Source of the DNA: Bacteroidales bacterium
Lineage (GTDB): Bacteria > Bacteroidota > Bacteroidia > Bacteroidales > VadinHA17
Reading direction: 5' to 3'
Length of the DNA: 33,426 bases
Assembly: GCA_025358455.1 (NCBI GenBank)
Contig: JANYJP010000053.1
Coordinates: 1-33,426, forward strand
Part shown: in pieces, positions 10,626 to 27,329 of the stretch
Position numbering within the stretch: position 1 is the first letter of the stretch
Layout: each line of letters begins with the position of its first letter
Translations under genes and position numbers: made by a program
Notes under the pieces: generated by a model
The model's database searches: none
What the model was told of the DNA's origin: nothing
What the model saw: the letters and a program-made list of their open reading frames with translations, nothing else

Positions 10626-12470
10626 ATGGCTAAAAAATCAGAGGTTAACGAAAGAGAAGAAGTGGTTATTCGTTTTTCGGGTGATTCAGGTGATGGAATG
10701 CAGCTTACCGGAACACTGTTTTCAGACACTGCCGCTTTATTCGGTAATGACTTATCAACCTTCCCTGATTATCCTGCTGAAATACGTGCTCCACAGGGTA
10801 CTGTCGGAGGTGTTTCAGGATTTCAGGTACATCTTGGCCATTCGGAAATAAATACACCCGGAGATTATTCTGATGTACTGGTTGCAATGAATCCTGCTGC
10901 TATTAAAGCTAATGCAAAATGGATAAAGCCGGGAGGTACAGTTATTTATGATGAAGGTAATTTTACTGAAAAAAATATTGAGAAAGCCGGTTATATAAAA
11001 GATCCTATTAAGGAAGAAAAGCTCGAAGACTACAATATTATTGCAGCGCCCATATCTTCTATGGTTAAAGAAGCCTTAAATGGTTTTGGGCTTGATCAGA
11101 AATCAGTACAAAGAACAAAAAATATGTTTGCCCTGGGAATGGTTTACTGGTTGTTCGATCGGAAACTCAAGTATACAGAAGATTATTTTGAAAAAAAGTT
11201 CCGTAATAAACCCGGCATGGCTGAGGCAAATAAAGTAGCCCTGAGAGCCGGATATTATTATGCTGAAACAATTGAAGCTTTAAAACCTGTTTATAAAATT
11301 CTCCCTGCAGAGATTGCTAAAGGCACTTACCGCAATATTTCCGGAAATACGGCAACTGCCTGGGGTTTTATTGCAGCAGCTGAGAAAGCAGGATTGGAAT
11401 TGTTTATCGGTTCCTATCCAATTACTCCTGCCACGGGAATACTCGAAGAGCTGGCAGCCCGTAAAGATCTTGGAGTCAAAAGTTTCCAGGCTGAAGATGA
11501 AATTGCCGGAATATGCACCTCTCTTGGCGCAAGCTTCGCAGGTGATCTTGCAATCACTTCTACCTCCGGACCAGGTCTTGCACTTAAATCTGAAGCTATC
11601 GGGCTCGCTGTAATGGCCGAACTTCCTATAGTTATCGTTAACGTACAAAGGGGAGGACCTTCAACAGGGCTTCCAACAAAAACTGAACAGGCTGACCTGA
11701 TGCAAGCCCTTTACGGACGGAATGGTGAATGTCCGGTTGTTGTTATCGCATCAAGTACTCCCTCTGATTGTTTTCATTATGCTTTCGAAGCAGCAAAAAT
11801 TACTCTGGAGCATATGACCCCTGTACTGCTTTTATCTGACAGCTATCTTGCAAATGGTACTGAACCATGGAAGATACCTCAGATGAAAGATCTTCCTAAA
11901 ATAACACCACCTTTTGCAGACAAAAATGATATCCCCTTTTTGCCATACAAACGCGATGATGAAAAACTTGCTAGATCATGGGCTGTCCCTGGTACGCCAG
12001 GTATGGAACACAGGATCGGGGGTCTTGAAAAAACAGTTAAGGGAACAGTTTCTTATGTCCCCGAAAATCATGAACATATGGTCAAACTAAGAGCTGAAAA
12101 GGTCGAGAGAGTAGCTAACGGAATTCCTGATCTTGAAGTTCATGGCGCACCATCAGGTGATATACTTGTGGTAGGTTGGGGCGGATCATATGGTTACCTA
12201 ATTACTGCTGTCCGTGAATTACAGGCTGAAGGCCATAAGGTTAGTCTCGTTAATTTCAATTATATCAATCCTTTGCCTAAAAACGTCAAAGACGTGTTCA
12301 GGCAATTTAAGAAAATTGTGGTTTGTGAACTGAATTTAGGCCAGTTTGCCGACTATCTGCGGATAAAACATCAGGAGTTCACTTATGAACAGGTTAATAA
12401 GGTTCAGGGTGTACCGTTTACAATAAAAGAGATAAAAGATAAATGCATAAAAATGCTGGAGGGAAATTAA
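10626..12470 (+). CDS. korA: 2-oxoacid:ferredoxin oxidoreductase, fused gamma-alpha subunit (KorA)
   Basis: Subunit of a CoA-acylating 2-oxoacid:acceptor oxidoreductase, most likely 2-oxoglutarate-specific, which interconverts 2-oxoglutarate and succinyl-CoA with ferredoxin. The 614 residues are a fusion of an N-terminal gamma domain (about 14-195; RFSGDSGDGMQLTG, PAEIRAPQGTVGG) and an alpha pyrimidine-binding domain (about 230-610; SYPITPATGILEE, FQAEDEIAGI, TSTSGPGLALKSE, RGGPSTGLPTKTEQ). The fused form is usual in Bacteroidota. Its stop is one base before the korB ATG. Substrate assignment rests on family resemblance; another 2-oxoacid is possible. Confidence 0.93.
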   Translation: MAKKSEVNEREEVVIRFSGDSGDGMQLTGTLFSDTAALFGNDLSTFPDYPAEIRAPQGTVGGVSGFQVHLGHSEINTPGDYSDVLVAMNPAAIKANAKWIKPGGTVIYDEGNFTEKNIEKAGYIKDPIKEEKLEDYNIIAAPISSMVKEALNGFGLDQKSVQRTKNMFALGMVYWLFDRKLKYTEDYFEKKFRNKPGMAEANKVALRAGYYYAETIEALKPVYKILPAEIAKGTYRNISGNTATAWGFIAAAEKAGLELFIGSYPITPATGILEELAARKDLGVKSFQAEDEIAGICTSLGASFAGDLAITSTSGPGLALKSEAIGLAVMAELPIVIVNVQRGGPSTGLPTKTEQADLMQALYGRNGECPVVVIASSTPSDCFHYAFEAAKITLEHMTPVLLLSDSYLANGTEPWKIPQMKDLPKITPPFADKNDIPFLPYKRDDEKLARSWAVPGTPGMEHRIGGLEKTVKGTVSYVPENHEHMVKLRAEKVERVANGIPDLEVHGAPSGDILVVGWGGSYGYLITAVRELQAEGHKVSLVNFNYINPLPKNVKDVFRQFKKIVVCELNLGQFADYLRIKHQEFTYEQVNKVQGVPFTIKEIKDKCIKMLEGN

Positions 12471-12471
12471 A

Positions 12472-13494
12472 ATGGCAGAAATGGTATTAACAAAATATGC
12501 TCCCAAAGATTTTAAAAGTGATCAGGAAGTAAGATGGTGCCCGGGATGTGGCGATCATGCTGTATTGAGTTCGGTTCAGAAAGCGCTGGCAGAACTGGGA
12601 ATAATTAAAGAAAAATTTGCATTTATTTCCGGAATTGGATGCTCTTCCAGGTTTCCTTATTATATGAATACATATGGATTTCATAGCATTCATGGCCGGG
12701 CTTCTGCAATAGCGTCCGGAGTGAAAACAGCAAACCCCGACCTGTCTGTATGGCAGATCACCGGTGATGGTGATGCGCTGGCTATCGGTGGAAACCACTT
12801 CATACATGCTATCCGAAGGAATATAGATATTAATTTAATCCTGTTCAACAATGAGATCTATGGCCTTACCAAAGGCCAGTATTCGCCTACCTCCTCCAAG
12901 GGGCTTGTTACAAAAACATCACCTTTCGGAACCGTGGAAGAACCATTCTCAGTCGGTGAACTTGTGATAGGAGCAAAAGGTAAATTTTTTGCACGTACCA
13001 TCGATACAAATGTCTCTCTGTCAACTCAGATATATATTGAAGCAGCTCAACACAAAGGAACTTCAGTAATTGAGGTTTTGCAAAATTGTGTCATTTTCAA
13101 TGACGGAATTCACGATACCGTTGCTGACAAAGAGGTACGGGACGACAGAACTCTTATTCTTAAACATGGGCAACCAATGCTTTTCGGTAAAGAGAATAAC
13201 CAGGGTCTGATACTTGACGGATTGAAACTAAAAGTTGTACGACTTGGTGAAAATGGTATTTCTGAAAAGAATATACTTATTCATGATGCTCTTGAACCTA
13301 ATCCGGGAATCCAATATATGCTTGCCAATATGAAATATCCTGAATACCCTGTTGCTCTTGGAGTTATCAGGTCAGTTTTAGGGCAAACCTACGATAAAGC
13401 TGTTGAAGAACAAATCACCGAAATAAAAGAGACTGCAAAAATCAAATGCATGGACGATCTGCTTATGAGCGGTTCAACCTGGAAGGTTCAGTAA
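12472..13494 (+). CDS. korB: 2-oxoacid:ferredoxin oxidoreductase, beta subunit (KorB)
   Basis: The thiamine-diphosphate and Fe-S subunit paired with KorA. Over 340 residues it shows cluster ligands Cys23 and Cys26 (WCPGCGDH) and Cys57 (GIGCSSR), and the TPP/Mg motif GDGDALAIGGNH (98-109), followed by LFNNEIYGLTKGQYSPTS. No separate ferredoxin-like delta subunit is nearby, consistent with the two-subunit form. It is followed by a strong hairpin terminator. Confidence 0.95.
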   Translation: MAEMVLTKYAPKDFKSDQEVRWCPGCGDHAVLSSVQKALAELGIIKEKFAFISGIGCSSRFPYYMNTYGFHSIHGRASAIASGVKTANPDLSVWQITGDGDALAIGGNHFIHAIRRNIDINLILFNNEIYGLTKGQYSPTSSKGLVTKTSPFGTVEEPFSVGELVIGAKGKFFARTIDTNVSLSTQIYIEAAQHKGTSVIEVLQNCVIFNDGIHDTVADKEVRDDRTLILKHGQPMLFGKENNQGLILDGLKLKVVRLGENGISEKNILIHDALEPNPGIQYMLANMKYPEYPVALGVIRSVLGQTYDKAVEEQITEIKETAKIKCMDDLLMSGSTWKVQ

Positions 13495-13627: not shown

Positions 13628-16600
13628 ATGGATGATTTGAATCATACTAATCCTGAATATCATCGGCTTCTTCATGACCAACAGGAGCGATTGAAGGAAT
13701 TGGCGTGTATTAACAGGACCACTTCCATTCTGAAGGAGGGTAAGCCTATTGAAGAATCTCTGCAGCAAATCGTTCTACTTCTTCCGGCAGCCTGGCAATA
13801 TTCTGAGTTTACTGTTGCCCGTATCCGGTTCATGGGAAATGAGTTTGAAACAGTCGATTTTAAAGAGACGAACTGGAGAATGACCCAGGAGTTCAGTACT
13901 ATCGATGGTGAAAAAGGATCGATTGAGATTTTTTACACTTTGGAATTCAGTCCTGAAAATGAAGGTCCATTCCTTAAAGAAGAAAGGGACCTTATCCAGA
14001 ATATCGGAAGCCTTCTGACCGGGTATATTAATAGTTATAAGGTGCGGGATATAATCAGATTATCACAGATTCCAAAACAGGAGGACGACGATATAAAAGA
14101 GGTTTCCAGCAGGAAACTTCTGCAGAAATTTCTGGACCGGCATAATGCCGAGAGAGATGTATTTCACGATCTGATGCCTTTTAAAGTTAAAGAGATTCTT
14201 CTGGTAGCAAACCTTTATGATGCTTACTCAATTGAAGGGGAAGGCAGGTTTTCTGATCACATGCTGGGTGAGTATTATCAGATGAGTCTCACATCAATAC
14301 CGAGGGTTACAGGAGTTTCCGGTGAAGAAGAGGCATTCACCAGGTTGAAAGCACGTCATTATGATATGATAATTATAATGATCGGAGTTGATAAGGAGAG
14401 TCCGATGGTCATGTGCAAAAAAATAAAGGATAAGTATCCGTATATTCCTACTTCTCTGCTTCTTAATAATCCCGGTGATGTTCCATTTGTGAAAAAGCAG
14501 AAATCACTTGGTGTTCCATTTGATACGTACTTTGTGTGGACTGGCGAGTCAAAGGTGTTTTTTGCAATGGTGAAACTTCTTGAAGACAAGGTGAATGTGG
14601 ATAATGATACAAAAAAGGGACTCACAAGGGTAATTCTTATTGTAGAAGATTCGGCAGGTTATTATTCAAGTTATCTGCCAATGCTCTATACCCTCGTGAT
14701 GGAACAGACTAAAAACCTGATTGAGGATGTTTCAACCGATGAATTATACAAAGTTCTTAAACTCAGGGCCAGGCCAAAAGTACTACTCGCCTTAAATTAT
14801 GAAGACTCTATTTCAATTTATAATAAATACAAGGATAGCTTGTTATGTGTTATCTCGGATATGCGATTTCCTAAGAATGGTTTGTTGCACGATACCGCGG
14901 GGTTCGAACTTATTCAGCACATCAAAAAGGATCTTCCTAACCTCCCGGCTGTACTCCAGTCTTCAGACCCGGAAAATGCCAGGTACGCGCATATTCTAAA
15001 GTCAAATTTTATTAATAAGAATTCAGAAAGCCTGCTTCAGGATCTTAAATCATTTATCAACTATTATCTTGGTTTTGGTCATTTTGTTTACCGCGATAAC
15101 AAGGGTCGTCAGATTGCTGTTGCAAAATCGATGAAAGAATTCGAAGCGTACCTCCAGACTGTGCCAGAGGATTCCCTTGTATATCATTCTATGAAAAATC
15201 ATTTTTCGCTCTGGCTGATGGCTAGAGGAGAAGTGAAAATTGCAAAATTGATAAATCCTATAAGCGTATCTGACTTTAACAGCCTTAAAGAACTTAGAGA
15301 ATTCCTCATCGACATAATCCGGAAACGTCGCCGGGAGATGAACAAAGGAAAGGTTGTAAATTTTGAAGAATCTGCCGTTATTGATGAAACAAATGTTGTC
15401 AGCCTTTCAGGAGGATCACTTGGTGGCAAGGGTCGCGGCCTTGCATTCGTTAATACTCTAATATATAGTTTTGAACTTGGTCGTCTCTTACCCGGAATTA
15501 ATATCAAAACACCTGTTACTGCAATAATAGGAACAGATGAATTTGATATGTTTATGGACCGTAACCATCTGTGGGACAAGGTTAAAGAGGAGAAGGATTT
15601 CGAAGTTCTTCAAAAATTGTTTCTTAATGGGAGCTTAAGTTACACCCTCGAAAAAGAACTTAAAATATTTATCAGGCTTATCAACAAACCTCTGGCAGTA
15701 AGATCGTCAAGCTTGTTTGAAGACTCTATGAGTCAACCGTTTTCAGGAATTTTCGGTACATACCTGCTCCCGAATAATAACCAGGACCCTGAAATAAGAT
15801 TTAAGCAACTGTCCGAAGCTATAAAACTTGTGTTCTCATCAATATATTCAAAAAATTCGCGTACTTATTTCGAAGCTATTAACTATAAAGTAGAACAGGA
15901 AAAAATGGCTATCGTAATTCAATCGGTAGTAGGTAACAGGTTTGAAAATGTTTTTTATCCCCATATTAGCGGAACCGCCCAGTCATTCAATTTTTATCCT
16001 GTCGCACATATGACTCCCCAAGATGGATTTGCAGTTGTGGCAGTCGGACTCGGACAATATGTTGTAGAGGGAGAAAGGGCCTTCAGATTTTCTCCTGCTT
16101 ATCCTTCACTTGATATCATTTCCCATAAAGATCTGTATAAAAATTCTCAGGTTCGTTTCTATGCCGTAGATATGGCTAAACAACAACTGAATCTTCTTGA
16201 GGGTGAAACCGCGGGCCTCATTACTCTGGATATAAGTCAGGCCGAAAAACATGGTACACTTCAGCACTCAGCATCAGTGTTGAATAGCGATAATGATACA
16301 ATAACACCCGGGCTTGATGTTCCCGGACCCAGGGTAGTTAATTTTGCCGACATATTAAAGTATGATTATGTACCCCTGGCATCAACTCTCAAAATTGTTC
16401 TGGACGTTGTAACTGAAGCTTTTGGAACACCTGTTGAGATAGAATTTGCAGTTGACCTTAAAAAGGATGAAGCCGGAAAAGCTTCATTCTATCTTCTTCA
16501 GATTAAGCCCCTGGTCGGAAGTGGTGCCGGTTATTCAATAGATCCTGAAAGTATCTGTACTGATGATTTGCTGCTGGTAACCAGAAAAAGTATGGGGAAT

Positions 16601-17074
16601 GGTGTAATAAATGATATATCTGATCTGATCTATTTAGAGCCTGAAAAATTTAATAACATGCTTACCAATGAGATGGCAAACGAGATTGACAGTATGAATG
16701 ATAAGATGCTGAAAGAAAACCGGCGTTATGTTCTTCTGGGGCCTGGCAGGTGGGGAACTAAAGACCGGTTTCTGGGCATTCCGGTGGCTTGGCCCCAGAT
16801 ATCACAAGCAAAGGTAATTGTGGAGGTGAGTCTGCCAAATTTCCATCTTGACGCATCTCTCGGATCTCATTTTTTCCATAATGTGACCTCCATGAATGTT
16901 GGTTATTTTTCTATAAACCAGGGGACAAATGACGGAAGCATTAAATGGGAGAAACTTAAAGAACAGAATTTAATAGAAAATGGTAAGTTTTTCCGCCACA
17001 TAAGATTTGAGAAACCACTTCTTATAAGAATGGATGGTAAAAAAGGGATGGCAGTTATTTCAATGAATGGTTAG
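13628..17074 (+). CDS. Receiver / PPDK_N ATP-grasp multidomain protein (paralog A, with GAF-like N-terminus)
   Basis: A 1148-residue cytoplasmic protein of the class annotated as PEP/pyruvate-binding domain protein; true function unknown. Order: coiled linker (RLKELACINRTTSIL, 21-35); GAF-like domain (about 40-140); receiver-like domain 1 (about 187-325) with Met251 where the phospho-Asp should be; receiver 2 (about 334-480) keeping Glu340-Asp341, Asp411, Ser445 and Lys464 but with a large insertion; a helical module with NHFSLWLMARGE (524-535); PPDK_N ATP-grasp (about 594-965) with GGKGRG (Lys601), VRSS (Arg692), EIEF (Glu939) and LQIKP; and a C-terminal domain with GPGRWG (1038-1043) and HFFHN (1081-1085). 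The usual Arg of the LQxRP motif is Lys960. No phosphohistidine or PEP-barrel domain follows. ATG 13628 is chosen; an in-frame TTG at 13574 lies inside the upstream terminator. Confidence 0.85.
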   Translation: MDDLNHTNPEYHRLLHDQQERLKELACINRTTSILKEGKPIEESLQQIVLLLPAAWQYSEFTVARIRFMGNEFETVDFKETNWRMTQEFSTIDGEKGSIEIFYTLEFSPENEGPFLKEERDLIQNIGSLLTGYINSYKVRDIIRLSQIPKQEDDDIKEVSSRKLLQKFLDRHNAERDVFHDLMPFKVKEILLVANLYDAYSIEGEGRFSDHMLGEYYQMSLTSIPRVTGVSGEEEAFTRLKARHYDMIIIMIGVDKESPMVMCKKIKDKYPYIPTSLLLNNPGDVPFVKKQKSLGVPFDTYFVWTGESKVFFAMVKLLEDKVNVDNDTKKGLTRVILIVEDSAGYYSSYLPMLYTLVMEQTKNLIEDVSTDELYKVLKLRARPKVLLALNYEDSISIYNKYKDSLLCVISDMRFPKNGLLHDTAGFELIQHIKKDLPNLPAVLQSSDPENARYAHILKSNFINKNSESLLQDLKSFINYYLGFGHFVYRDNKGRQIAVAKSMKEFEAYLQTVPEDSLVYHSMKNHFSLWLMARGEVKIAKLINPISVSDFNSLKELREFLIDIIRKRRREMNKGKVVNFEESAVIDETNVVSLSGGSLGGKGRGLAFVNTLIYSFELGRLLPGINIKTPVTAIIGTDEFDMFMDRNHLWDKVKEEKDFEVLQKLFLNGSLSYTLEKELKIFIRLINKPLAVRSSSLFEDSMSQPFSGIFGTYLLPNNNQDPEIRFKQLSEAIKLVFSSIYSKNSRTYFEAINYKVEQEKMAIVIQSVVGNRFENVFYPHISGTAQSFNFYPVAHMTPQDGFAVVAVGLGQYVVEGERAFRFSPAYPSLDIISHKDLYKNSQVRFYAVDMAKQQLNLLEGETAGLITLDISQAEKHGTLQHSASVLNSDNDTITPGLDVPGPRVVNFADILKYDYVPLASTLKIVLDVVTEAFGTPVEIEFAVDLKKDEAGKASFYLLQIKPLVGSGAGYSIDPESICTDDLLLVTRKSMGNGVINDISDLIYLEPEKFNNMLTNEMANEIDSMNDKMLKENRRYVLLGPGRWGTKDRFLGIPVAWPQISQAKVIVEVSLPNFHLDASLGSHFFHNVTSMNVGYFSINQGTNDGSIKWEKLKEQNLIENGKFFRHIRFEKPLLIRMDGKKGMAVISMNG

Positions 17075-17180
17075 TTAGTTTTATTATAAGGTGTTCATTA
17101 TACTAATAAAATTGCGGATTACGGATTTTTGATTGAGGATTAATTATTATTGCGGTTCATTTTGAGTAATAACAGTATTT

Positions 17181-20156
17181 ATGGCCATTATTGAGGGGAT
17201 CTTAGATCTTCAGAAATACGACTTTACCGATACTTCTTTCGACCTTCTGATGCAGAAACGAATTCATCGTGTACTTGTAATCTGCAGTAATTATGATAAT
17301 TATATGCTTGAAGAGGATGGAAGAATTGATGAACAGATTTTTAACGAATATGCTTCTCTTAATCTGAGATATCCTCCGACGTTTGTCCAGACAGATAATG
17401 CCGAAGACGCATTTAAGATGCTTCAGGATGGAAATATTGATCTTGTTATCTCAATGCTTAGCCTTAAAGGAACTGATGTTTTTGCCCTTGCAAAACGGAT
17501 CAAGTCAAAGTATGAAAACATCCCTATAGTTGTGCTCACTTACTTTTCAAGAGAGGTTTCAATTCGCCTGGAAGGAGAGGATCTGAGTGCAATTGATTAC
17601 GTATTCTGCTGGCTTGGAGATGCATCACTTATCCTTGCAATAATAAAATTGATTGAGGATAAAATGAATGCTGATTATGACATTGAACATATAGGTGTTC
17701 AGGCTATTATCCTTGTGGAGAATTCTATCAGGTATATATCATCTTACCTCCCCAATATTTACCATATCGTTCTTCTGCAGTCTCTCGATTTCCAGCGAGA
17801 GGCGCTTAATGAACATCAGAGAATGCTTAAAATGAGGGGACGTCCAAAAATTCTTCTGGCGAACAATTTCAATGATGCACTTAACCTTTACAAAAAATAT
17901 AAATACAATGTTCTTGGCGTTATTTCCGATATCAGTTATAAAAGAGATAATGTACCTGATGAAAATGCAGGTATTGAATTGTGTAAAGTAGTAATGGCCG
18001 ATGATGATAAGGTCCCGTTTCTGATTCAGTCCTCAAGTTCAAAACACAAGAATGTTGCTGAAGAACTGGGAGCCGGGTTTATTAATAAATATTCCAAATC
18101 CTTATCTCTTGAACTAAGAAACTTTATTATTCAGAACCTTGCCTTTGGACCATTTGTTTTCAGAAATCCTGATACCCTTGAGCCTATAGCTATCGCCACC
18201 GATCTGCAAAGTCTTCAGCAGAAGTTACTCACTATCCCCGATAACACTCTCGAATATCACGCTACACGTAACCATTTCTCAAAATGGCTCAATGCCAGAG
18301 CTCTCTTCCCGGTTGCCCAGATGTTCAAGTATATACGTAAGGAGGATTTCGATACTATGGACGAAATGAGGAGATTTCTTTATGTTGCAATCTCAAGTTT
18401 CCGGCTGGGAAAGGGTAGAGGAGTTATAGCAAAATTTGATAAAACAAGTTTTGATGAATATCAGATCTTTTCGCGTATCGGAGAGGGATCAATTGGCGGA
18501 AAAGCCAGAGGACTGGCCTTTATCAACAGGATAATTAAGAATAACAAGCTGTTTAATAAGTTTCCCGATGTTATTATCGCTATTCCAAGAACAGTTGTCC
18601 TGAGTACTGACATCTTTGATGAGTTTATGGATCATAATAATCTATATTCCATAGCTCTTTCTGACCTTGCCGATGATGAAATACTTAACAGGTTCATAAA
18701 TGCTGAACTTCCCGGACATGTATACCAGGATTTTTATGCATTCCTTGCTGTATCAAGAAATTATCCGATAGCAGTACGTTCTTCAAGTAAACTTGAAGAT
18801 TCACATTATCAGCCTTTTGCAGGAGTGTATTCTACTTATATGATTCCAAGGATCTCCGATAATAAACTTATGGTTAAGATGCTATCAGATGCAATCAAAG
18901 AGGTTTATGCTTCAGTATACTATAAAGCCAGCAAGGCTTACATGACAGCCACTGCGAATGTTATTGATGAGGAGAAGATGGGGATAATTCTTCAGGAAGT
19001 ATGCGGGAGCAGGCATGGTGAGATGTATTATCCAACTTTATCAGGTGTAGCCCGTTCAATAAATTATTACCCGATAGGTTCTGAAAAAGCTGAAGATGGA
19101 ATTGTCAATATCGCCTTTGGCCTGGGAAAACTTATTGTTGAGGGTGGATTGTCTCTCAGATTCTCGCCGAAATATCCCAAAAAAATTCTCCAGCTTTCAT
19201 CTCCGGGAACGGCATTACGAGATACTCAGAAAGAATTTTTTGCTCTTGATCTGAATATTGACAGTTTCGTTCCGTCCACTGACGATGGGGTAAATATTCT
19301 TAAACTTGACGTAAAAGACCTGACTAACGAGGCAGCCATGCGATATGTGGCTTCGACTTATGACAGAAATAATAATGTTCTGCGTGATGGGATATCTTTT
19401 CCGGGAACACGTATTATAACATTTTCAAATATCCTGCAGCATAAGACATTTCCTCTGGCTGATATTTTAAGTACTCTGCTTGAAATTGGTCAGCGAGAGA
19501 TGAATAATCCGATTGAAGTTGAATTTGCAGTTAACCTTGAAACTCCTGCAGGTATCCCTAAGATTTTTAACTTTTTGCAGATAAGGCCTATTGTACACAC
19601 CGAGGAGGCTCATAGTATTAACCTCGATCATATCAAACCTGAAGAGACAATTATTTATTCAGAGTCAGCACTGGGGAATGGTGTCTTTAAAAATATTCAT
19701 GATCTTGTTTATGTTAAGCCTGAAACATTTAATGCTATAAATAACAAAAATGTTGCGATTCAGATTGAAAAGATTAATGCTCTTTTTGTTAAGCACGGAC
19801 AGGGATATGTTCTGATAGGCCCGGGAAGATGGGGCTCCACTGACCCATGGCTTGGTATTCCTGTTAAGTGGCAGCAGATTTCCGCGGCCAGGATAATCAT
19901 TGAATCAGGATTAAAAAATTACCGGATAGATCCTAGTCAGGGAACACATTTCTTTCAGAATCTTACTTCATTCAGGGTAGGATATTTAACCATAAACCCA
20001 TTTATTAAGGAGGGTTATTATGACGTTGAGTACCTGAATAAATTAAATGTGGTTTATGAAGACAACTATATACGACATGTCAGGTTCGAAGCACCTCTCG
20101 AAATTATGATTGATGGCAAGAAACATAAAGGGGCAATTCTGAAACCAATATCATGA
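17181..20156 (+). CDS. Receiver / PPDK_N ATP-grasp multidomain protein (paralog B)
   Basis: A 991-residue paralog of the preceding gene without the GAF-like N-terminus. Receiver-like domain 1 (about 27-163) has Met92 in place of the phospho-Asp (DLVISM). Receiver 2 (about 173-318) has Asp250 (VISD), Ser284-287 and Lys303, but Asn181 replaces the second acidic residue (VEN instead of VED). Then come the helical module (NHFSKWLNAR, 364-373), the PPDK_N ATP-grasp domain (about 432-805) with GGKARG (Lys441), VRSSS (Arg533), Glu781 and LQIRP (Arg802), and the C-terminal domain with GPGRWG (880-885) and HFFQN (923-927). ATP-binding residues look complete, unlike paralog A. The 106-base gap to paralog A has no clear terminator, so co-transcription is likely. 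Biochemical role unknown. Confidence 0.86.
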   Translation: MAIIEGILDLQKYDFTDTSFDLLMQKRIHRVLVICSNYDNYMLEEDGRIDEQIFNEYASLNLRYPPTFVQTDNAEDAFKMLQDGNIDLVISMLSLKGTDVFALAKRIKSKYENIPIVVLTYFSREVSIRLEGEDLSAIDYVFCWLGDASLILAIIKLIEDKMNADYDIEHIGVQAIILVENSIRYISSYLPNIYHIVLLQSLDFQREALNEHQRMLKMRGRPKILLANNFNDALNLYKKYKYNVLGVISDISYKRDNVPDENAGIELCKVVMADDDKVPFLIQSSSSKHKNVAEELGAGFINKYSKSLSLELRNFIIQNLAFGPFVFRNPDTLEPIAIATDLQSLQQKLLTIPDNTLEYHATRNHFSKWLNARALFPVAQMFKYIRKEDFDTMDEMRRFLYVAISSFRLGKGRGVIAKFDKTSFDEYQIFSRIGEGSIGGKARGLAFINRIIKNNKLFNKFPDVIIAIPRTVVLSTDIFDEFMDHNNLYSIALSDLADDEILNRFINAELPGHVYQDFYAFLAVSRNYPIAVRSSSKLEDSHYQPFAGVYSTYMIPRISDNKLMVKMLSDAIKEVYASVYYKASKAYMTATANVIDEEKMGIILQEVCGSRHGEMYYPTLSGVARSINYYPIGSEKAEDGIVNIAFGLGKLIVEGGLSLRFSPKYPKKILQLSSPGTALRDTQKEFFALDLNIDSFVPSTDDGVNILKLDVKDLTNEAAMRYVASTYDRNNNVLRDGISFPGTRIITFSNILQHKTFPLADILSTLLEIGQREMNNPIEVEFAVNLETPAGIPKIFNFLQIRPIVHTEEAHSINLDHIKPEETIIYSESALGNGVFKNIHDLVYVKPETFNAINNKNVAIQIEKINALFVKHGQGYVLIGPGRWGSTDPWLGIPVKWQQISAARIIIESGLKNYRIDPSQGTHFFQNLTSFRVGYLTINPFIKEGYYDVEYLNKLNVVYEDNYIRHVRFEAPLEIMIDGKKHKGAILKPIS

Positions 20157-26417: not shown

Positions 26418-27329
26418 CTAGCCTTTATAGAAAATGGCTTTAATGATATGGCTGGCCATCTTCGGATTTTCTTTCAGCCGGCGTGTTGAATAACCAAACC
26501 ATTTTTTACCGTATGGAACATAAACTCTCATAGTATGTCCTGCCTTTACAATACTATCACGAAGGCCCGGAGTAACACCGTATAGCATCTGGAATTCGTA
26601 CATATTCCCCGGAACCTTATATTTTTCAAGAAGCTTGTATGCTCCTTCTACCAAAGGCTTGTCGTGTGTAGCGATACCAACATAAATCTTATTCTTAAAC
26701 ATAAACTCAAGATCTTCAAGGTAATGCTGGTTAACCTCTTCGTATTTTTTAAATGCAATAGCTTCAGGCTCAATATATATCCCTTTGCATAATCTGTAAT
26801 TTAAAGGATGTTTTGCACTATAAAGGTCCATCATTCCTTCGATATCCTTAAAGGTGCGTTTTAAATATGCCTGCAGGACAAGTCCTACATTTGCCGGAAA
26901 TTCAACCTGCAATCTGCGATATAATTTAATTTCGTCATCAGTACAGGGCGAATCTTCCATATCAATTCTGATAAACCCATTGTATGAAGCTGCTTTAGCT
27001 ACAATCTCCCGAACATAATTATAACAGATCTCTTTGTCAATAAGTAATCCAAAACTTGTAGGCTTAACTGAGAAATTTCCGTCAATACGATTTTTGTACG
27101 AATAATCAATAAGATCCAAATACTCTTTTTTGTTCTCCTCTGCTTCGTCGAGTGACGTTATGAATTCTCCAAGAACATCAAGAGTTACTTTTATTTTATT
27201 GTTATTCAATTCCTTCGATGCTTGCATTGCATCTTCAATAGTTTCACCGGATATATACGATTTCGAAAATATCCAGATAAATTTTTTCGGGAAATATGGC
27301 AGTATTGACGCAATGAATTTGTTGAACAT
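26418..27329 (-). CDS. Proline dehydrogenase
   Basis: FAD enzyme oxidising proline to 1-pyrroline-5-carboxylate. The 303-residue single-domain barrel has the family motifs LDVLGE (50-55), SVKPTSFG (87-94), RIDMED (121-126), QAYL (153-156), RLCKGIY (179-185), ATHD (220-223), FQMLYG (246-251) and the C-terminal VPYGKKWFGYSTRRLKENP (271-289) containing the paired arginines for proline binding. No P5C dehydrogenase lies in the window. The ATG is preceded by AT-rich sequence on the minus strand. Confidence 0.94.
   Translation of the reverse strand: MFNKFIASILPYFPKKFIWIFSKSYISGETIEDAMQASKELNNNKIKVTLDVLGEFITSLDEAEENKKEYLDLIDYSYKNRIDGNFSVKPTSFGLLIDKEICYNYVREIVAKAASYNGFIRIDMEDSPCTDDEIKLYRRLQVEFPANVGLVLQAYLKRTFKDIEGMMDLYSAKHPLNYRLCKGIYIEPEAIAFKKYEEVNQHYLEDLEFMFKNKIYVGIATHDKPLVEGAYKLLEKYKVPGNMYEFQMLYGVTPGLRDSIVKAGHTMRVYVPYGKKWFGYSTRRLKENPKMASHIIKAIFYKG

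Follow-up and report, generated by a model that had tools for sequence, protein, structure and literature searches.

Tandem receiver/ATP-grasp proteins from Bacteroidales belong to a dikinase-like family linked by gene order to glutamate dehydrogenase or a 2-oxoacid oxidoreductase

Two adjacent genes, here named A and B, were analysed on contig JANYJP010000053.1 of a Bacteroidales bacterium (VadinHA17; assembly GCA_025358455.1, a metagenome-assembled genome that is 95.7% complete). The whole stretch of 33,426 nt is referred to as the window. Both genes are genuine and encode large proteins with receivers, a helical module, a PPDK_N ATP-grasp domain (Pfam, 124.5 and 123.9 bits for A and B, cut-off 27) and a C-terminal domain, in this order (Table 1). 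A previous reading, made from the sequence alone, had described the two genes, their lengths and this order, all of which stands. It needs amendment in two respects: A carries an additional GAF-like domain, and the first receiver is a pseudo-receiver. Across the phylum, genes of this family mostly lie next to glutamate dehydrogenase (GDH) genes; in the lineage of the window they follow korA and korB.

Table 1. Genes A and B, their domains and the upstream kor genes (positions in the window)
Feature	Residues	Position	Strand	Remarks
Gene A, 1148 aa		13628..17074	+	GAF, pseudo-receiver, receiver, helical module, ATP-grasp, C-terminal (GPGRWG) domain
A: GAF-like domain at N-terminus	13-147	13664..14068	+	
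A: pseudo-receiver	about 189-331	14192..14620	+	Met251 at phospho-Asp place
A: receiver	about 332-487	14621..15088	+	Asp411, Ser445, Lys464; Pfam match sub-threshold only
A: helical module		15089..15415	+	part matches DUF5752, 25.6 bits vs cut-off 23
A: PPDK_N ATP-grasp	597-962	15416..16513	+	'LQIKP', Lys at place of B's Arg
A: C-terminal domain	981-1148	16568..17071	+	possible swivel phosphohistidine domain; invariant His1081 (codon 16868-16870)
Gene B, 991 aa		17181..20156	+	pseudo-receiver, receiver, helical module, ATP-grasp, C-terminal domain; without GAF
B: pseudo-receiver	about 28-171	17262..17693	+	
B: receiver	about 172-326	17694..18158	+	Glu180, Asn181, Asp250, Ser284, Lys303
B: PPDK_N ATP-grasp	437-815	18489..19625	+	
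B: C-terminal domain	823-991	19647..20153	+	invariant His923 (codon 19947-19949)
korA, 2-oxoacid:acceptor oxidoreductase alpha (fused gamma-alpha)		10626..12470	+	TIGR03710, 659 bits vs 482.75; best PDB match 6n2n_A
korB, 2-oxoacid:acceptor oxidoreductase beta		12472..13494	+	immediately upstream of A; best PDB match 6n2n_B

As had been claimed from the sequence alone, neither protein has a C-terminal phosphoenolpyruvate (PEP)/pyruvate barrel: Pfam gave no match at E ≤ 1 in A or B, and fewer than 190 residues remain after the ATP-grasp domain. This absence sets both proteins apart from true PEP synthases (PEPS) and pyruvate phosphate dikinases (PPDK), a distinction that was likewise drawn before. 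The short remainder also leaves no room for the RIF-binding domain that separates the ATP-grasp domain from the His domain in rifampin phosphotransferase (RPH). The NCBIfam model of RPH scored far below its cut-off on B (21.6 vs 999 bits). No DNA-binding or other well-known output domain was found, as Pfam at E ≤ 1 returned just PPDK_N, receivers and DUF5752.

Receiver residues were tabulated in 41 rows, comprising window A, window B, the Parabacteroides distasonis protein and 38 of 40 intact B-type relatives (L207 and L209 lay outside the length window and were omitted). Asp250, Ser284 and Lys303 of the second receiver (B numbering) are kept in every row. The acidic pair Glu180-Asp181 is present in 40 rows; the exception is window B, where Asn181 could reduce the binding of metal or stem from a sequencing difference. 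By Pfam score, the receiver of B is above the cut-off and that of A below it. The first receiver lacks Asp at the acceptor place (Thr in 36 rows, Met in 4, Trp in 1) and has Trp in 41/41 rows at position 144, near the expected place of the conserved Lys. It was therefore classed as a pseudo-receiver. The intact active-site residues of the second receiver suggest two-component control.

For the ATP-grasp and C-terminal domains, 28 rows from four architectures, including three A rows, were aligned. The ATP-grasp Lys (GGK), Arg (RSSS), Glu (E(F/Y)A) and Gln (LQ) are invariant. All three A rows read LQ(I/V/L)KP, with Lys replacing the Arg of 'LQxRP'. The C-terminal domain is likewise invariant at GxGRWG, at one Asp, at one Glu and at the His of SxGxHFF. 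This His is also present in all 41 rows of the receiver table, and SxGxHFF was found in 60/60 family members longer than 650 aa and in 11 of 12 shorter ones. The conserved ATP-grasp residues and the receiver active-site residues lend support, at the level of sequence, to the earlier proposal of ATP use under two-component-type control.

The family was surveyed by matching its profile (A3) to 247 genomes sampled in the phylum Bacteroidota. Matches were obtained in 42 genomes, giving 74 members including the two of the window; ELFV dehydrogenases were present in 225 of the genomes. Members fall into four architectures, B-type (about 1000 aa), A-type, P580 and NT. P580 consists of the ATP-grasp and C-terminal domains, and NT has the same two domains preceded in most members by a GAF-like N-terminus. 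An NTP_transf_2 domain exceeded the cut-off in 7 of 10 NT-type members scanned (L108, L117, L118, L121, L122, L127, L212) and was absent in the other three (L125, L126, L211). Where present, it follows the GPGRWG domain, and the idea that GPGRWG itself marks a nucleotidyltransferase was dropped. Most such genes adjoin GDH, so that nucleotidylation of GDH is conceivable. The GAF domain of A is common to NT members (E 5e-23), and in the family tree P580 and B group together to the exclusion of A (support 86/78). A is thus an old paralog, and its origin as a recent tandem duplicate of B was rejected on the same placement. None of the 71 members of other genomes belongs to the A branch.

Gene neighbours were counted in 54 loci fetched from outside the window, which contain 72 family members. 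Other family members were treated as transparent, so that one GDH counts for each of the paired P580 and NT genes. At L205 a B-type gene is split into two open reading frames (ORFs) with one TGA inside; its 636-aa piece was kept as a member and its 343-aa piece dropped. GDH was the immediate neighbour of 60 members, in 43 loci (B-type 34/41, NT 16/20, P580 10/11). With roughly two ELFV genes per 3,000 genes, we estimate a chance adjacency of ~0.1% per member. The second commonest neighbour cluster reached 19 members in 10 loci and the third 7 members; the second is a 287-aa protein (e.g. L117:13832-14695).

In a tree of 66 GDHs (those of ≤380 aa omitted), 15 of the 16 GDHs labelled as P580/NT-adjacent lay within one 16-row clade (98/99). 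The sixteenth, from L205, actually adjoins the broken B-type gene. B-adjacent GDHs were found either in the NADP-GDH clade (33, including L205) or in a separate short clade (8, support 100/99). The neighbour-type labels changed 11 times on the tree, compared to a mean of 22.7 after shuffling, and none of 200 shuffles was as low. As the neighbours fall in separate clades, the association with the family spans distant GDH lineages. Two NADP-type neighbouring dehydrogenases passed the NCBIfam NADP-GDH cut-off (753 and 761 vs 536 bits). Two short ones, called GDH on best match only, had GDH models on top but below cut-off (556 and 492 vs 750 bits). In the P. distasonis record, the B homologue is divergent beside gdhA, and another gdh lies at a distance of 3.5 kb. 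Among the matches listed, G230 and G238, two genomes from the same taxonomic order, contain a B homologue convergent with GDH.

Further genes recur at these loci. In L106 and L110, GDH-B units are separated by genes for a histidine kinase and a LuxR-type response regulator (by Pfam for the L110 copies), and a histidine kinase/LuxR-type response regulator is located near B in L096, L103 and L111; these are candidates for the source of the signal to the receiver. Aminotransferase genes stand beside or near B-type genes in L095, L096, L104, L107 and L109, two of which have no adjacent GDH; the two scanned by NCBIfam matched alanine/tyrosine-type enzymes best. A PemK/MazF-like toxin gene was seen beside or near B-type genes in L096, L104 and L107 (Pfam on the L104 copy).

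A GDH beside the A-B pair of the window was looked for and rejected: the GDHs of this genome sit on contig C134. There, at L129 (G000:C134:26000-45900), two different GDHs lie 5.2 kb apart with dprA, weakly LolA-like and sortilin-like genes between them, and no family member is present at this locus. Instead, the pair of the window follows korA and korB. The top NCBIfam models for korB are beta subunits of 2-oxoacid ferredoxin oxidoreductases, all below their cut-offs. The PDB entries 6n2n/6n2o, whose PDB name is generic, we take to be the 2-oxoglutarate oxidoreductase (OGOR) of Magnetococcus. Bacteroides fragilis Kor1AB is called an orthologue of MmOGOR, a 2-oxoglutarate enzyme, in PMC11304471. 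The korAB of the window probably encodes a 2-oxoglutarate-type ferredoxin oxidoreductase.

Close relatives of the window comprised 58 loci, 57 of which had enough upstream DNA to test gene order. A directly precedes B in 51 of them, and in the other six korB lies directly before B (6-147 bases). The A-B gap measures -14 to 15 bases in 49/51; in the window it is 106 bases, and in L028 a gap of 111 bases runs to a B ORF with a late start. Of 47 loci with korB before A, 44 have a gap of -8 to 585 bases between the two genes and three a gap of 2.3-4.6 kb. Judged by this spacing, korA-korB-(A)-B is probably a single operon; promoter and terminator scans gave results near chance. The adjacency of A and B, which had been singled out for checking, is therefore frequent among close relatives but not constant, given the six loci with B alone and the missing A-type in other genomes. 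For the same reasons the two-part switch imagined for the tandem pair is not general. A proline dehydrogenase gene (route to glutamate; window 26418-27329) lies 6 kb downstream and is kept in many close relatives, which may be chance. The link to GDH and korAB, which the sequence-only reading did not mention, is the best clue to function.

The same reading had seen no phosphohistidine domain in either protein. At the sequence level this holds. PF00391 gave no match at E ≤ 1 in A or B, and a search of 25 C-terminal domains at E ≤ 10 was equally negative. With hhalign, the comparison of 51 C-terminal and 26 PEP-utilizers domains reached a probability of 0.1%. When 51 slices running from the ATP-grasp to the end were set against 23 PPDK/PEPS sequences, they aligned confidently over the ATP-grasp alone (97.8%); a forced alignment of these slices left the His motifs unmatched. 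A C-terminal profile found a single match in the PDB at E ≤ 10, to a siderophore-binding protein (E 0.78), and four Pfam families were hit, each in 1/25 members (best E 0.1). In the window genome, the only PPDK_N protein found besides A and B was an ordinary PPDK on C139. A PEP-utilizers domain is indeed encoded elsewhere in this genome, as had been suggested for checking, solely in that PPDK.

At the level of fold, the absence of a phosphohistidine domain becomes doubtful, if weakly so. Structures of A and B were modelled with alignments A1 (35 of 46 full-length B relatives and 28 of 47 A relatives) and A2 (36 of 47 A relatives and 26 of 46 B relatives). Comparison of model A yielded 14 dikinase rows; two are ATP-grasp-only chains, leaving 12 informative rows. 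In 8 of these the alignment extends into the His domain of PPDK, PEPS or RPH. Residues 574-1147 of model A aligned with residues 8-510 of PPDK 1dik over 342 residues (rmsd, root-mean-square deviation, 6.9), compared to 232 residues for rows limited to ATP-grasp. The further PPDK rows of this kind were those with 1kbl (348 residues, rmsd 7.0), 1ggo (344, 7.0), 1jde (337, 6.9) and 2dik (297, 5.4). RPH 5hv2 aligned over 362 residues, reaching residue 867 (rmsd 7.1), RPH 5hv3 over 290, ending at 1085/829 (rmsd 2.7), and PEPS 2ols over 289, ending at 1090/429 (rmsd 2.7). The rmsd near 7 in the model A alignments indicates a different placement of the domains. Five of the seven PPDK rows reach into the central domain, and Foldseek aligned model A with five PPDK entries over about 690 columns (rmsd 12-16). 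The limits of the PPDK His domain presumably lie near 389-510. For RPH, the accessible passages of PMC4844700 give a swivel domain of 767-865 with catalytic His825, and for PEPS a catalytic His422. If the last stretch is ungapped, His1081 would come close to RPH 825 and PEPS 420, a hint that the histidines correspond. Overall, the balance tips slightly towards a swivel-type domain.

We tentatively favour a reading in which A and B, gated by their receivers, transfer phosphate to the neighbouring enzyme of the 2-oxoglutarate node, GDH or 2-oxoglutarate oxidoreductase (KGOR), or otherwise control it. It ranks first among the explanations considered, although we hold it with less than even confidence. 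The proteins would then be regulatory phosphotransferases of Bacteroidota, equipped with the PPDK/PEPS/RPH engine minus its small-molecule acceptor domain. The ATP-grasp domain would place phosphate on His1081 (A) or His923 (B), located in a C-terminal domain of swivel type, and the phosphate, or a phosphorylation-dependent shape, would act on the partner enzyme. This partner would be GDH for most surveyed members of the phylum and the korAB ferredoxin oxidoreductase in the lineage of the window. The receiver (Asp250/Asp411), together with GAF in A, would gate phosphotransfer in response to a two-component or small-molecule signal. We infer regulation from the missing small-molecule domain and from the receivers, GAF or nucleotidyltransferase domains. 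The 2-oxoglutarate/glutamate node is suggested by coupling, seen in gene order only, to distant GDH lineages and elsewhere to a 2-oxoacid oxidoreductase, 2-oxoglutarate probably being the common denominator of GDH and korAB.

Two explanations follow at equal rank. A and B could be metabolic dikinases that phosphorylate a small molecule which GDH or KGOR makes or uses, such as glutamate or 2-oxoglutarate, which the neighbouring dehydrogenase supplies or consumes. PEPS and PPDK act on pyruvate, and gene order cannot tell metabolic from regulatory coupling. Further characterised relatives also use small molecules, RPH rifampin (passages of PMC4844700) and HpeHI phenols (passages of PMC12167813). 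However, no substrate-binding domain of PEPS, PPDK or RPH type was recognised in A or B, and the receivers, GAF and the nucleotidyltransferase domains of NT relatives are typical of regulation; we regard this explanation as rather unlikely. Just as improbable to us is a non-catalytic sensor, in which the ATP-grasp domain reads ATP/AMP, the receiver reads a signal, and GDH or KGOR is bound and allosterically modulated without phosphotransfer. Such a sensor would agree with a C-terminal domain unrecognisable by sequence, with the Lys that A carries for the Arg of 'LQxRP', and with the haloarchaeal PPS-like PspR, reported as a repressor in the available parts of PMC10948481. It is at odds with the invariance, over four architectures, of the C-terminal His and of four ATP-grasp residues (Lys, Arg, Glu, Gln), which suggests retained chemistry.

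We give still less weight to a C-terminal domain of new fold, unrelated to swivel domains, with the ATP-grasp domain acting directly on its target. The lack of any profile match and model B, which hardly supports a swivel fold, would fit; the extension of most PPDK rows of model A into the central domain and the long Foldseek alignments, though at high rmsd, do not. Last in rank, and very unlikely, is a relay within the protein, from the C-terminal His to its own receiver Asp, as in an unconventional histidine kinase. Receiver Asp, Ser and Lys do occur together with the His in 41/41 rows. Yet the scanned P580 and NT members have no receivers by Pfam and keep the engine, the His and the GDH linkage, and some loci carry a histidine kinase able to feed the receiver.

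Several observations weigh against receiver-gated control of the 2-oxoglutarate node. Twelve of the 72 members have no adjacent GDH (L095, L096, L098, L104, L105, two in L119, L126, L192, L196, L212, L213). L104 has a GDH two genes away, L095 and L096 have an aminotransferase close by, and both members of L119 are near a contig edge; in the remaining loci the identified neighbours are unrelated. Of the four neighbouring dehydrogenases that were scanned, only two pass a GDH cut-off of NCBIfam, and both GDH genes of the window genome are on another contig than A and B. Upstream of kor, bamA, skp and murI are conserved in many close-relative loci too, so the kor link may partly be backbone gene order. 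None of the sequence methods used connects the C-terminal domain with phosphohistidine domains already known. Four of the 12 informative rows of model A miss the His domain (5hv1 and 5fbs end in the RIF-binding domain, 5lu4 and 5jvl at ATP-grasp), and model B reaches it in one of eight comparable rows (5jvl_A, 333 residues, rmsd 14.6). The His loop has a pLDDT (predicted local distance difference test) below 50 in both models, and the pairing of His1081 with His825 (5hv3) depends on ~12 residues past ATP-grasp (5hv6: 277 residues).

Bacteroidota often assimilate ammonium via GDH, and to our knowledge its control in this phylum is poorly understood. If the enzyme itself is the target, a protein-directed role would be added to a fold known for small molecules. 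The boldest form, a new class of metabolic protein kinases, is unlikely as far as we can judge. In it, receiver/GAF-controlled dikinase engines made of ATP-grasp and swivel His, without a small-molecule part, would reversibly phosphorylate GDH in several Bacteroidota lineages, the A-B pair of the window would be re-targeted to ferredoxin-dependent 2-oxoglutarate oxidoreductase, and a single family would thereby apportion 2-oxoglutarate to nitrogen assimilation or the tricarboxylic acid branch. Histidine phosphorylation of Escherichia coli GDH was reportedly described by Lin and Reeves. Standing beside distant GDH lineages, including gdhA of P. distasonis, the family is a directly testable candidate GDH regulator. 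No published function for it was found in the openly available literature, which omits most subscription papers, and this agrees with the earlier remark that none was known. The component domains are already known; their combination and the coupling to GDH did not turn up in the openly available literature searched.

Compared to RPH (PDB 5hv1, 5hv2, 5hv3, 5fbs), A and B lack the RIF-binding domain and a recognisable swivel sequence, and they have receivers or GAF and genes linked to GDH or kor. In contrast to PEPS and PPDK (PDB 2ols, 1dik, 1kbl), they have neither a PEP/pyruvate barrel nor a PF00391 match, and an ordinary PPDK is also encoded elsewhere in the window genome. The nucleotidyltransferases GlnE and GlnD are covalent regulators of nitrogen control near the glutamate/glutamine/2-oxoglutarate node. 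The family shares with them this node and, in most NT-type relatives scanned, an NTP_transf_2 domain; no homology is claimed for A or B. In the two-component dikinases HpeHI, CreHI and PpsAB, as described in the accessible passages of PMC12167813, the ATP-grasp domain stands alone and the swivel and substrate domains are together, whereas A and B unite ATP-grasp and a possible swivel domain in one protein and the acceptor is missing. The haloarchaeal PPS-like regulator PspR differs in that its ligand-domain region is reported to bind DNA and that the available passages mention no receivers (PMC10948481); the likeness lies in a dikinase scaffold that is reported to serve regulation.
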